Assembly: GCA_946406315.1 (NCBI GenBank)
Contig: CAMJKD010000001.1
Coordinates: 1 to 64,000, forward strand
DNA: 64,000 nucleotides
Reading direction: 5' to 3'
DNA from: an uncultured Candidatus Saccharibacteria bacterium
GTDB taxonomy: Bacteria; Patescibacteriota; Saccharimonadia; Saccharimonadales; Saccharimonadaceae
Position 1 is the first letter of the stretch; each line of letters starts with the position of its first letter. Of this stretch, positions 42,406-57,241 are shown piece after piece. The notes beneath the pieces were generated by a model, which saw only the letters and a list, made by a program, of their open reading frames with translations, was not told the DNA's origin and ran no database searches. The position numbers and the translations under genes are program-made.

Positions 42406-42772
42406 GGGGCTGACAAAGCTTAGACGGATTATTAACAGTATGTATGCGGATCGATTAACACCGTAAGTGTTTTCATAAATGCAGACAAAACTGCTAGTAA
42501 GCATGTAGCTTATATGCCTGCTTACGCTATGGCCTAAGATATAACTAGGTCTGTTATCCTTGGTGAGATACCATAACTTCGGATAATATCATACACATGG
42601 TAATAAGGTTGACCTTCTGACAGAGATCAGCACGAAAAATCAGTCATGACATTGCTTGAGTTTTGTTTATTCCAGCTCTAGTAAGTTTGTCGAGATGAAA
42701 GAATGAACTATGTCCGTAGATTACATACCAGAGGTAGTTCGGACCCGGAGGCAGTATCCGGCAGCTCCACCA
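42406..42772 (+). ncRNA. ssrA: Transfer-messenger RNA
   Basis: The 5' end GGGGCTGA and 3' end CAGCTCCACCA form the alanyl acceptor stem, and the T arm has GTTCGGACCC. The tag frame from 42481 reads ADKTASKHVAYMPAYAMA then TAA (42535-42537). It rescues stalled ribosomes and marks their products for proteolysis. The tag ends in AMA rather than the common ALAA. Confidence 0.95.
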
Positions 42773-50300: not shown

Positions 50301-52931
50301 ATGGCAGATAAAGATGAAAAAGATACAAGTAAAGTTGGTGGCGTGCCTGATTCAAGTGACGACAAGGGTGTCGATGAAACTTTAGGTGATTATAAAACTG
50401 AATCCGAAGAGGAAGAAATCGTTAAAGTTGGTGGTCTCAAGGCACATATGGCTGAGGATGGCGTAGAAGAATTGACGGTTGAGAACGTGATGGAAGATAG
50501 CTTCTTGCGTTACTCGATGTCAGTCCTAATCGATCGCGCTTTACCGGATGTACGTGATGGTTTGAAACCGGTAAACCGCCGTATTCTTTATGCGATGAAC
50601 AAGAACGGTTGGAAGGCGCCACATGCGACCGTAAAGTCCGCTCGTATCGTTGGTGAAGTAATGGGTAAATATCATCCACACGGTGACTCTTCGATTTACG
50701 AATCAATGGTAAATCTTGCTCAGCCTTGGAAAATGCGTTATACGCTCGTAGAAGGCCAGGGTAACTTCGGTTCAATGGACGGCGATGAAGCAGCTGCTTC
50801 ACGTTACACTGAGGCTCGCATGGATAAGGTGGGCGCAGAGCTTCTATCGGATATTGAGAAAAATACGGTTGATTTCCGCGATAACTTCGATGGAACCGAA
50901 CAAGAGCCGGTGGTGCTACCGGCGGCAGTCCCGAACATTCTTTTGAATGGTCAGATGGGTATTGCGGTTGGTATGGCAACAAATATTCCACCGCACAACC
51001 TCGGCGAAGTAGTAGATGCGACGATTGCGCAGATTGATAACCCAGACATCACTCTGAAAGAGTTAATGAAGCACGTAAAGGGTCCAGATTTTCCAACTGG
51101 GGCTGAAGTTTACGGCGGTGCGCCGATGGTGCAGGCTTACGAAACTGGCCGTGGCTCTGTGACGATTCGTGCAGTAGCAAATATTGAAGAGCGCAAGAAT
51201 GGTCGCTTTAATATCGTAATTACAGAGGTGCCTTACGGTATGAGTAAAGAGGCCTTTGTCGATAAGGTACGCGAACTTGTACTCGCGAAGAAATTGGATC
51301 ATATCGCTGATGCACGTGACGAATCGGCTCGTGGTAAGATTCGTGTAGTAGTAGAGCTTAAGAAGGACGCATTCCCGAAGAAGATTTTGAACCAGCTTTA
51401 TAAATTAACTGGTTTGCAGACTTCGTTCCACTATAACGTCTTGGCGCTAGTTGATGGTATTCAACCAAAGGTGATGGGCCTCAAGGAGATTTTGGCGGAG
51501 TTTATTAAGCACCGCCAGAAGGTAGTACGTCGTCGTACAGAGTTTGACCTCAATAAGGCAAAAGAACGTGCACATATCTTAGAGGGTTTGAAGATTGCGC
51601 TTGATCATATTGATGAAGTTATCAAGACAATTCGTGAATCTTATGATGATGCTGATAAACGTTTGATGGAACGCTTTGGCTTGTCTGAAGTACAAGCGGC
51701 GGCTATCTTGGCAATGCAACTACGTCGTCTCCAAGGACTAGAGCGCGATAAGATTGAAAACGAATTGAAAGAACTTCATGACTTAATCAAGAAGCTCGAA
51801 GGTATCTTGGCATCTGAACAGGCAATTCTTGATGTAATTAAGGAAGAACTCCTTGTCATGAAAGAGAAGTACGGCGATAAGCGTCGCAGTAAAATCTTTA
51901 ATCATGAGCTTGGTAAGTTTGCGGAAGAAGATTTGATTCCAGATGAGGAAAGCGTTGTACTCTTAACAGCGCAAGGTTACGTCAAGCGTGTATTGCAGAA
52001 TGACTTCAAGAAGCAGAACAGAGGCGGTAAGGGTCGTCGCGGTATGACTACGAAGGAAGAGGACGTGATAGATACTATTATTACGGCGTCTTCGCATGAC
52101 TTCTTGCTATTCTTTACGAATCAGGGTCGTATCTTCCGCATCAAGGCCTATGAGATTCCGCAGTCGTCACTGGTAGCAAAGGGAACTGCTTCGGTGAACC
52201 TCTTGAATCTCCATCCAGAAGAGAAGATAACTGCTGTAATTAAGCAAGGTGATGAGGCGGGCGAAGATGGCTATCTCTTTATGACGACTACGAAGGGCAC
52301 GATTAAGAAGACTTCTTTGAAAGATTACGCCAATATCCGTACGAACGGTTTAATCACGATTAAACTCGATGATGGCGACGAGTTACGTTGGGTACGTGGC
52401 ACGACGGGTGAGAATGACATTATTATCTCAACTTCTGCTGGTCAGGCGGTACGCTTTAATGAGAAAGATGTGCGCCCGATGGGACGTTCGGCGCGTGGCG
52501 TACGTGGTGTACGCTTGCGTCCAAATGATACTGTTGTAGGTATGGATGTCGTGTCTGATCCGAAGAGTCAGAAGTTGATTGTAATTTCGACGAAAGGCTA
52601 CGGTAAGATGACGGCGGCAACAAACTTCCCGCCACATAAGAGAGGTGGTGTAGGTGTTAAGGTGGCAGCTGTAACGGCGAAGACTGGTCCAATTGCGGCG
52701 GTCCATACGCTCGATCCAGAGGCGAAAGAGATTATTATGATGTCAACTGGTGGTCAAGCGATTAGGGTAGCCGTAAAGGATATTCCAACGCTCGGTCGCG
52801 CTACGCAGGGCGTACGCGTGATGCGGCTTAATGATAGCGATACGGTGGCTTCTATTGGTATTATTCCGCACGAGGAAGAGGAAGCTGAGGGGGAGGGGGA
52901 TGAAGCAAAGCTAGTGGCGAAAGGGAAATAA
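50301..52931 (+). CDS. gyrA: DNA gyrase subunit A
   Basis: An 876-residue GyrA. It has an acidic N-terminal extension of about 55 residues, then the breakage-reunion domain ([18 protein letters not shown]; catalytic Tyr in [11 protein letters not shown]) and a C-terminal beta-pinwheel with the GyrA-box-like [10 protein letters not shown], which marks gyrase rather than topoisomerase IV. In the quinolone region [10 protein letters not shown], Ser is kept and the Asp87 position is Glu. The C-terminus is acidic. SD AAGGAGG precedes the ATG. Confidence 0.95.
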
Positions 52932-52972: not shown

Positions 52973-53377
52973 TTACTGAAGCTCTTTGGTAGTAGGTGAT
53001 TGAGTAGCGAGCTTGCGGTCAAAAGTCCAGAGTGGTTCGGCTTGATTAAGCGCCGCATAAGTAGCGAGACAACAATCGTTAAATGATAGTTGAGGATGCT
53101 CAGTATAGAATGGAAAGACATTCGAGAAGAGCGGTATGTTGTAGCTAATGGAGGGGTTGCTAAGAAAAATACTTAATATTTCGGTAATAATGGAACGGTC
53201 GAGATGATAGCATTTCTCTAGAACAAAGACGGTTTCTGTTATAGTCAAGTCGGAGATGTGGAAGATAGTGTTGGGGCGAGCGAGTAAGGTGCGAGCCTTT
53301 TGTGATTGTTTGGGGACGTCATTAAGGATGGCGCGTAGGACGATATTAGTATCGATGGACTCTGGATTAGCTGCCAT
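52973..53377 (-). CDS. PIN-domain toxin (VapC-like)
   Basis: A 134-residue PIN protein with the acidic metal-binding set: Asp in SIDTNIVLRAIL (about 9), Glu in TETVFVLEKCY, Asp in SFNDCCLATYA (about 100) and Asp in TFDRKLAT (about 119). PIN toxins cut RNA when freed from the antitoxin. The start overlaps the antitoxin gene's end by 11 nt, the usual toxin-antitoxin arrangement. Confidence 0.85.
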   Translation of the reverse strand: MAANPESIDTNIVLRAILNDVPKQSQKARTLLARPNTIFHISDLTITETVFVLEKCYHLDRSIITEILSIFLSNPSISYNIPLFSNVFPFYTEHPQLSFNDCCLATYAALNQAEPLWTFDRKLATQSPTTKELQ

Positions 53378-53675
53378 ATTTCTCCTTTAGTTCTTGTTTG
53401 GCGGCGGAAGTTTCTAACCATTCTTTATGTAGGGTAGAAGCGGTTTTTCCAGCATTTTTTTGGATTGATTGTTTGGCTCGATTAGGGAGCTGGCGATTTA
53501 TTTGGTCGAGTGTGGCAAATATTTCGGTAGCAGTTTTTTGTTTGTTGATGGAGATATTGTTATTGCTGTCGACGCAAAATACTATTTTGCTACCTGGGGT
53601 AGCGTTAATGATGCGGCGAATTTTACTGGGAAGAGTAATTTGCCCAGTTTTTCCAACGACGGTTGTATATTCCAT
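53367..53675 (-). CDS. AbrB/SpoVT-type antitoxin
   Basis: A 102-residue protein whose first 45 residues form a swapped-hairpin AbrB DNA-binding domain (VVGKTGQITLPSKIRRIINATPGSKIVF). The rest is a basic helical region expected to wrap the PIN toxin. First gene of the pair; it should repress its own promoter, which carries three 12-bp repeats. Confidence 0.82.
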   Translation of the reverse strand: MEYTTVVGKTGQITLPSKIRRIINATPGSKIVFCVDSNNNISINKQKTATEIFATLDQINRQLPNRAKQSIQKNAGKTASTLHKEWLETSAAKQELKEKYGS

Positions 53676-53738: not shown

Positions 53739-53869
53739 GGTCAATAGCTTGGCGTTTTTCTGAAGAAGGTGATATTTAAGCCGCGATGGGTGTGGGGTTT
53801 GTAAAAGTCACTTTTACATTTTTTGGGTCGTTTTTACCTCTGTTACGATTGGTGTTAGTTATGCAATAC

Positions 53870-53898
53870 TTTACAAAATCGAGCAATTTTGCTATAGT
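53870..53898 (+). promoter_or_regulatory. Promoter of the 1-kb structured RNA
   Basis: TTTACA and TATAGT are 17 bp apart with TTGC directly before the -10. Confidence 0.8.
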
Positions 53899-53904
53899 AT
53901 GGAC

Positions 53905-54947
53905 AGTTGCGCGGAGGTAAGCACAGACCAAGACCGTGCAATTGTGTATTTTAAAAGATTTTCTTCAATACTTACTAAATATCATAGCCGCCTCAGACGA
54001 GGCGCCGGCGGAATAATGCTGGGACATTATTCCATCGACGCATCGCCTGAGGGCGGTGGAGGATTCATGCTTTTGCCAAACCAGTTGTAGAGGTAGGATA
54101 CAACCCCTGCCTTGGCTGGATGCATAGTCGGCGTCTTCGGATGCCTAGACACAAGAAAGCTATCAAAGGTGGAATTGCCTCCGTGTAAGATAGTGAGTAT
54201 TGAGAGAGCTGCAGCAATGTAGCTCCATGCGTTTCAGAAATGGAACGTAAAAACTGTGTAGTATTGACACTTCAGAGCGAGCCGATCGTAAGGCGAGCGA
54301 ACATTGTACAGCACACAAGCCTAAGAGTGGGACACGGTGACGGCTTTTATGAATCAAGTGGTTCATAAAAGAGAGAAGGTAGTGATGCGATGGACAGCAA
54401 ATCCATCCGCTAAGCTGCATGGCGTCGCGATCTCTTGGCCTCGAAAACCAAGAGAATCCTCCCAAGACTCGACCTTGGCCGATAGTACAGAGGTGCTATT
54501 GGATGCCTCGAGGGTCCACCGTAGGGTGGAAGGTAAGTGGTACCGGGTGGCAGCAAGGAAGCCTTGCTAAAGAATATTAGGAATGTTCTGCATCTGCGAA
54601 CTTCTACCGGCCTTCGGGTCGGTCTGGCGGACTCCGCTGGTTGTATTCGCTCGGTTCGTGCGGGGGTTGCTTCTGCGAGGCTTCCCAACTGAACGCACGC
54701 AGGCGTGCAAATCTCGAGTCAGAGGAGTGTGAATAGACGGTCGGCCAACCGTTCGAAAGCATGAGACCTGATAAGAGATGTCTGTGGCTCAACAATGATG
54801 AAGTGTTTTCGTTACCAAACCGTAGGGATACGATAAGGAACGGAGGAAAACAATTGGAAGTATGGTCCCAAGCCAAAATCTTCCTGGCACTTTGCATGAG
54901 TTCTTTTGTAACTCGTCAACCGGCGACTCCGCGTGAGTCGCCTTTTT
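53905..54947 (+). ncRNA. Large structured RNA of about 1.04 kb, family unknown
   Basis: A promoter at its 5' end, a strong terminator at its 3' end and no credible reading frame mark this as one RNA. Many perfect hairpins are visible: GGAATAATG/CATTATTCC (about 54009-54033), CTTTTATGAA/TTCATAAAAG (about 54336-54363), TCTCTTGG/CCAAGAGA (about 54431-54455), AGCAAGG/CCTTGCT (about 54551-54569), GCACGC/GCGTGC (about 54694-54708), plus three stems with TTCG loops (GGCGTC-TTCG-GATGCC about 54129; ACCGGCC-TTCG-GGTCGGT about 54607; and one at about 53990-54060 with TGAG). It lacks rRNA, tmRNA, RNase P and group II domain V signatures. OLE, GOLLD or ROOL membership cannot be shown. Confidence 0.75.
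54922..54947 (+). terminator. Terminator of the 1-kb RNA
   Basis: GGCGACTC-CGCGT-GAGTCGCC followed by TTTTT. Confidence 0.9.
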
Positions 54948-54970: not shown

Positions 54971-55417
54971 ATGGAACTAGGAAGTTTAGGAGGTTTGATT
55001 GCGTTTGTATTGGGGTGGTTTTTTGCGCAATCAGGTAAGTTTATTGGTGATATGGTAATAAAAAAGCGAACTTTGAGCTTTTCGGAGGTCGTGGATTGTT
55101 TTACGCGCAGTGGCGGTATGCCAAGTGGACATACGGCTAGCTTTACGGGTCTAACGGTCTTTTTAGGGCTTCAGAATGGCTTTACGTCAGGTTTATTTGT
55201 ATTGGCACTTGCTATGACCATTATTGTGATCTACGACGCCGTAAACGTGCGTTTTGCGGTTGGAGAGCAGGGCAAGCTACTAAATATCATTGCAGAATCG
55301 GATAATAATAAGAAAACGCGCAAAATGAAAGTCGTAGAAGGGCATACAATTCCGCAAGTTTGCGTGGGCGCAGCGCTTGGCATTCTCCTTGGTTATCTCT
55401 GTTTTTTGTGGTTTTAG
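54971..55417 (+). CDS. Divergent PAP2 family membrane protein (DUF212)
   Basis: A 148-residue membrane protein of the DUF212 family (PF02681), distantly related to PAP2 acid phosphatases. Conserved parts are SGGMPSGHTASFTGL (about 47-61), IYDAVNVRFAVGEQGKLLN and VEGHTIPQVCVGAALG. It may act on lipid or undecaprenyl phosphates, but no activity is established for the family. TATAAT (54959-54964) is 6 nt before the ATG with no SD, so a leaderless mRNA begins right after the RNA terminator. Confidence 0.85.
   Translation: MELGSLGGLIAFVLGWFFAQSGKFIGDMVIKKRTLSFSEVVDCFTRSGGMPSGHTASFTGLTVFLGLQNGFTSGLFVLALAMTIIVIYDAVNVRFAVGEQGKLLNIIAESDNNKKTRKMKVVEGHTIPQVCVGAALGILLGYLCFLWF

Positions 55418-55734: not shown

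Positions 55735-57241
<1,507 letters not shown>

Follow-up and report, generated by a model that had tools for sequence, protein, structure and literature searches.

The window analysed here, a 64,000-nucleotide stretch of DNA from an uncultured Candidatus Saccharibacteria bacterium, contains a free-standing noncoding RNA gene of about 1.04 kb (~1,040 nt; 53902-54947, forward strand), whose start, stop and fold are conserved among its homologues. We consider it very likely that this gene represents a new class of large structured noncoding RNA; there are no transcript data, and transcription is inferred. Not many known classes of bacterial RNA reach about 1 kb or more with a conserved structure this elaborate. 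Two general criteria for a large structured noncoding RNA, compensatory structure and the lack of coding capacity, are fulfilled. The evidence is limited to seven distinct full-length sequences, several of which are close kin.

Homologues, transcription signals and coding capacity

Six further full-length homologues and one truncated remnant were found in two genera of Saccharibacteria and at three genomic sites, with identities of 62-98% among the seven full-length sequences. Searches by blastn in relatives yielded the homologues of G021 (89%) and of G037 and G005 (76%) as well as a 3' remnant in G027, and after these hits a homologue was recovered from G300 of the second genus. RGIG482 (L060) and RGIG5745 (L067) were added by a 20-letter pattern scan of a collection of 84,980 species genomes. 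The true pattern matches are titled uncultured Candidatus Saccharibacteria, and three titles name cattle or sheep gut. An alphaproteobacterial match (L065) covers 20 bases only and was discarded as a chance match.

The gene is bounded by a promoter and an intrinsic terminator (Table 1). The promoter matches the consensus at 10 of 12 positions, with a TG preceding the -10 element, and the terminator consists of a stem of 8 bp followed by TTTTT. One to two chance matches per scan type are expected in the region, and because each pattern is near this expectation, both are weak proof when taken alone. Their weight lies in their conservation, as promoter and terminator are present in 7/7 full-length homologues. 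A -10-like hexamer (TATAGT or TATACT) is found immediately 5' of the start motif GACAGTTGCG in all seven (the motif has one substitution in G021 and two in G005), and each unit ends in a hairpin and then a T-rich run.

Table 1. Positions of the RNA gene, its signals and its structural elements in the window, and of the gap stretches at the loci named.
Feature	Position	Strand	Evidence
Structured noncoding RNA gene, ~1.04 kb	53902..54947	+	Start inferred at conserved GACAGTTGCG
Sigma-70-type promoter, TTTACA-17 bp-TATAGT	53870..53898	+	Pattern scan and conservation in homologues
Intrinsic terminator, hairpin and T-run	54922..54947	+	Scan, conservation, helix in model
Inverted repeat TGTAAAAGTCACTTTTACA, possible operator	53800..53818		Similar repeat upstream at all three genomic sites; strand not assigned
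Conserved upstream box TTTTACCTCTGTTA	53832..53845	+	Core TACCTCTGTT in 6/7 homologues
5' hairpin	53903..53945	+	Local equivalents fold in genus 1 homologues; alignment between genera poor
Long imperfect hairpin	53988..54056	+	Many compensatory changes
Closing long-range helices 54063-54069/54895-54901 and 54074-54078/54885-54889, joining the RNA ends	54063..54901	+	Covariation model
Central long-range helices 54266-54274/54799-54807 and 54302-54312/54787-54797	54266..54807	+	Covariation model
Domain, closing helix 54314-54322/54531-54539	54314..54539	+	Covariation model
Domain, closing helix 54542-54550/54647-54655	54542..54655	+	Covariation model
Most conserved stretch, with AAACCGNAGGGATNCGATAAGG	54802..54893	+	Homologue alignment
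Hairpin loop pairing with 54639-54646	54098..54105	+	Covarying pseudoknot or intermolecular loop-linker contact
Linker partner of loop 54098-54105	54639..54646	+	Covariation, helix 7 of model
Palindromic GGCC, invariant, in hairpin loop; possible dimer kissing loop	54743..54746	+	Alignment
Variable linker, length and sequence differing among homologues	54569..54605	+	Alignment
Gap stretch, L017	1004-1501		
Gap stretch, L027	887-1501		
Gap stretch, L030	920-1498		
Gap stretch, L038	1914-2492	-	
Gap stretch, L039	1293-1896	-	

All seven full-length copies, spread over three unrelated genomic sites, keep the upstream region along with promoter, start and terminator. Copies from unrelated loci have the inverted repeat and the box TTTACCTCTGTTA in common; the box of RGIG482 is degenerate, and the repeat there differs in its letters with its palindromy kept (TTGTCGA..TCGACAA). 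These conserved upstream elements suggest conserved and probably regulated expression, an inference made without RNA-seq data. With one mismatch allowed, the box TTTTACCTCTGTTA also occurs upstream of promoter-like sequences at G000:C1:82580, G000:C5:40930 and G000:C9:9527, the first of which additionally has the start-like motif GGACAGTTGG after the box; the box may possibly be a shared promoter element.

A protein-coding role is rejected and the RNA very unlikely to code, as reading frames are not conserved and indels are mostly off-frame. The longest ATG frame per homologue measures 55-97 aa and varies in strand, frame and place, no conserved reading frame exists across the seven full-length sequences, and 437 of the 517 pairwise indels among homologues are not multiples of 3. 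Dinucleotide shuffles of the RNA strand (53903-54947) average -336 kcal/mol in minimum free energy (sd 8.4), and the strand itself reaches -400 kcal/mol (z = -7.7). The controls gave z-scores of -4.6 for the reverse strand and -0.6 for gyrA. A first-pass annotation, made from sequence alone, had proposed a promoter with 17-bp spacing and a T-tailed GC terminator framing about 1,040 nt without a credible reading frame, and these claims held.

Global fold and loop contacts

Comparison of the homologues shows that the alignment supports a single global multi-domain fold and not a row of hairpins. RNAalifold placed 279 pairs on the seven sequences; for 109 of these pairs, one or more of the sequences differ on both sides. 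The full model, including a pseudoknot, comprises 284 pairs with 95.3% of cells paired and 115 pairs with double changes, compared with 64 +/- 5 in shuffled controls (0/500 shuffles as high). Likewise, its covariation score of 0.427 was reached by none of 500 shuffles (0.246 +/- 0.009), and when partners were slid by 1-3 columns, only about 40% of cells were paired and just 15-25 pairs had double changes. Deriving the model from these same sequences biases the counts in its favour, and relatedness is not preserved by the shuffles; even so, the distance from both controls is very large. We regard the RNA as one object because of its long-range helices, namely the outer closing helix, both central helices and the helix closing the 54542-54655 domain (Table 1). 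A pairing of 54175-54184 with 54840-54849 appeared attractive in the window, but was rejected since it is disrupted in G021 and G300 with no compensating change.

The first-pass annotation had named the absence of covariation among homologues as a result that would refute a large structured RNA. The test is strongly positive and that reading is supported overall, with transcription remaining an inference without transcript data. Of the "at least eight long perfect hairpins" that it described, most are not perfect, the largest (53991-54052) being 82% complementary, and its "several" TTCG tetraloops held in part, with two clear UUCG loops in the model (stems 54130-54145 and 54606-54623).

A scan of unpaired columns returned 23 complementary candidates, and more than one compensated pair was found in only one of them, 54099-54103 with 54641-54645, which we extended by eye to 54098-54105 with 54639-54646. 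The partners of this loop-linker pseudoknot are 540 nt apart, and three pairs show double changes. The letters are UACAA/UUGUA in genus 1, the genus of the window (UGCAA in G021), and UAUGA/UCAUA in two copies of genus 2.

Distribution and genomic setting

The distribution of the RNA gene is patchy in the sampled genomes. By blastn it occurs in 5 of 45 genomes of genus 1, in one of them merely as a 3' fragment. A covariance model (R1) detected it in 6/295 genomes of the family, 7/393 of the class and 2/118 sampled from the second genus, and in a phylum sample of 287 it returned only the window's own copy. R1 was built on close sequences, so that diverged members may have been missed. Neither a profile HMM nor R1 and R2 with filters off revealed divergent copies at the corresponding site of other members of genus 1. 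In the DUF212 tree, the genus 1 carriers form a single clade (97/95) together with one non-carrier, G007.

The RNA is not essential, as close relatives lack it or hold a truncated copy. In G027 (L009 9083-9320) the 3' ~200 nt and the terminator are left, and the promoter and the 5' ~790 nt are gone. Because this copy is truncated despite a DUF212 protein identical to those of the carriers G005 and G037, the RNA is dispensable, at least in G027.

In the window, the gene lies between gyrA (50301-52931), followed by a MazE/PIN pair (52973-53675, reverse strand), and DUF212 (54971-55417), which starts 24 nt past the terminator and precedes the 16S gene (55735-57239); the nearest tRNA (60157) is 5.2 kb distant. 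All genus 1 carriers have the RNA between gyrA and DUF212, and the gyrB-gyrA-RNA-DUF212 locus is chromosomal and syntenic among them. In genus 2, two copies have a rare GNAT gene on one side and a TrmB-like gene on the other; the third lies 0.65 kb downstream of the 3' end of 16S, so that the downstream gene and its strand differ between the genera. Some 25 members of genus 1 retain gyrA-DUF212 without the RNA. The gyrA adjacency noted in the first-pass annotation is thus true in genus 1; the patchy distribution and the two other sites in the second genus mean that the RNA is not tied to gyrA. The neighbours identified by Pfam are DUF212, PIN, MazE, TrmB and GNAT, and no partner protein gene is common to all three sites. 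The TrmB-like regulator was rejected as a linked partner, as it has no match within the window.

No homologue was found in phages and plasmids by sensitive blastn, or in IMG/VR by pattern scans, where two matches were not homologues; phages that infect Saccharibacteria may be poorly represented in viral collections. These empty searches make a phage role unlikely and, together with the synteny, support the earlier view that the RNA is chromosomal and not phage-borne.

Several further observations concern the neighbourhood. The MazE/PIN toxin-antitoxin pair of the window also occurs at L006 5950-6652 in G021, on the opposite side of the RNA, and a PIN-like fragment is present in G020 (L015 673-822); with the differing side and the fragment, the gap around the RNA resembles an active site of insertion and loss. 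Among 80 genomes of the second genus, only 5 gave a match to the GNAT gene. The two copies within L067 3054-5569 and L059 9308-11763 resemble each other closely (71% identity), and both adjoin the RNA, each beside a TrmB-like regulator whose orientation differs between the loci. Near the RGIG482 copy, L060 3517-4827 encodes a 436-aa protein with a C-terminal Cas_csx3 domain.

In other species of genus 1 (G004, G026, G041/G018 and G029) the space between gyrA and DUF212 is occupied by different stretches, poor in ORFs and roughly 350-450 nt long (Table 1), with near-consensus promoters, terminator-like ends and folding z-scores of -2.6 to -4.4. None matches an Rfam family at gathering level, no relation to the 1-kb RNA could be detected, and they are mostly unrelated to each other, with even the near-neighbours in the tree, G041 and G029, differing. 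Their structures are not established, because in the sole related pair, L030 and L039, double changes affect just 2 of 99 predicted pairs. The gap is possibly a replacement slot for other structured RNA genes. In three other genomes it measures ~1.15 kb and is unrelated to the RNA: at L033 (348-1507) the opposite strand carries a reading frame of ~200 aa, and the gaps of L035 and L036 are 92-93% alike to L033 in DNA.

Interpretation and comparison with known large RNAs

The first-pass annotation had called for an Rfam search including GOLLD, ROOL and OLE, and had seen no hallmarks of rRNA, tmRNA, RNase P or group II introns, a view that held. A cmscan of 53902-54947 against Rfam 15 gave no match at the gathering threshold, and relaxing the cutoff to E = 10 added only chance matches (snoZ223, ST7-OT4_3). 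The models of GOLLD, ROOL and OLE failed at both levels, and those of group I and group II introns, RNase P, tmRNA and rRNA did not match at the locus. The same search does find the 16S (55735), RNase P RNA (39011), tmRNA (42406) and tRNAs of the window. The tmRNA (42406-42772; 75.5 bits, gathering 47) was missed by ARAGORN and is probably divergent. No earlier description of such an RNA in Saccharibacteria was found in the open-access literature searched; most subscription journals were outside coverage.

We posit that the RNA is transcribed from a dedicated promoter, which is probably regulated, and stops at a terminator that also belongs to the gene; comparison of the homologues shows it to fold as a multi-domain object in which long-range helices join the ends. 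A role in trans is favoured because the flanking genes differ between the genera, and the RNA may act as a stable accessory RNA scaffold; its action in trans, its stability and its function are inferred. Copies may contact each other by pairing of the loop with the linker, by the hairpin loop with the palindromic GGCC, or by both, and such contacts would yield a homo-oligomeric particle of the OLE, ROOL and GOLLD sort. We propose this because the GGCC loop, the variable linker and the covarying loop-linker contact resemble elements of those RNAs, which is an analogy and not proof. The covarying loop-linker contacts of GOLLD and ROOL and the GGCC loop of OLE are intermolecular bridges, and the cages of GOLLD and ROOL enclose variable linkers (PMC12286853). 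The GGCC loop of our RNA is invariant and gives no covariation signal, and the pseudoknot could equally be intramolecular. For the oligomer mechanism on its own, inferred by analogy, the balance tips slightly against; for the new large RNA and the oligomer taken jointly we hold a compromise view that leans slightly in favour. A bolder joint reading, in which the RNA would found an RNA-only homo-oligomer class in Saccharibacteria chromosomes and the gyrA-DUF212 gap would be an exchange slot for structured RNA genes, is unlikely.

Among the alternatives, a protein-binding scaffold remains possible, that is, an OLE-like RNP organized around at least one cellular protein and serving stress or envelope adaptation. 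It is favoured by the many conserved internal loops and junctions of a large ornate RNA, by the conserved upstream palindrome, which suggests regulated expression, by the precedent of OLE with its protein partners (PMC12286853), and by the two genus 2 copies adjoining the same rare GNAT and TrmB-like genes. However, no protein gene is linked at the three sites, the genus 1 copies lie by gyrA and DUF212, and the TrmB-like gene close to the copy of RGIG482 shares just 36% identity with the others; among the neighbouring genes at the loci, no partner protein was identified. A diverged or relic phage-type giant RNA (GOLLD or ROOL) stranded in the chromosome is very unlikely. Size class, patchiness, sites differing by genus and the origin of the ROOL name also from rumen sequences (PMC12286853) speak for it, but there is no Rfam match, and neither the phage or prophage and tRNA-island setting of GOLLD nor the phage, prophage or plasmid setting of ROOL was met, given the empty phage, plasmid and IMG/VR searches, the distant tRNA and the housekeeping neighbours in genus 1. 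Equally improbable is a large ribozyme or self-splicing intron relic, which the size, the multi-domain fold and highly conserved stretches such as AAACCGNAGGGAT might suggest, but the group I, group II and RNase P models do not match, the bounds are a promoter and a terminator and not exons, no gene is interrupted, and no internal reverse transcriptase or endonuclease ORF is present. A cis-regulatory leader or UTR, suggested by the start of DUF212 just past the terminator in the window, is all but excluded because the downstream gene varies by genus with a change of strand and the terminator intervenes, and gyrA-DUF212 persists without the RNA in the ~25 genus members.

Returning to the reading of a new large RNA, it implies that in uncultured phyla even RNAs of great length and strong conservation can escape family libraries. 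Three large RNAs solved recently, GOLLD, ROOL and OLE, are RNA-only multimers, and a chromosomal example from Saccharibacteria with 115 covarying pairs, outside known phages, would help to test the generality of giant RNA assemblies in bacteria. GOLLD forms a homo-14-mer nanocage and ROOL a homo-octameric cage. We do not file the RNA under these families because their covariance models fail, despite like size and style. It shares with raiA RNA a structured bacterial nature and an unclear function, but has no Rfam match, and raiA RNA was found to be a monomer in the same kind of study (PMC12286853). Unlike GOLLD, it lies away from tRNA islands and phage genes and was found here only in Saccharibacteria chromosomes; like GOLLD, it belongs to the size class above 800 nt and has an ornate fold, weaker conservation at the 5' end than in the 3' part, a variable linker and a covarying loop-linker contact. 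ROOL is shorter (~0.5-0.66 kb) and linked to phages or plasmids (PMC12286853; PMC5643018), but is likewise ornate, without a linked protein gene, patchy among relatives, dispensable and equipped with a variable linker. OLE, with 577 nt little over half as long, belongs to a different lineage and associates with OapA and other proteins, and its partner genes were not seen at the loci of our RNA; the two are alike in being large RNAs with a palindromic GGCC hairpin loop and a possible homodimer contact.
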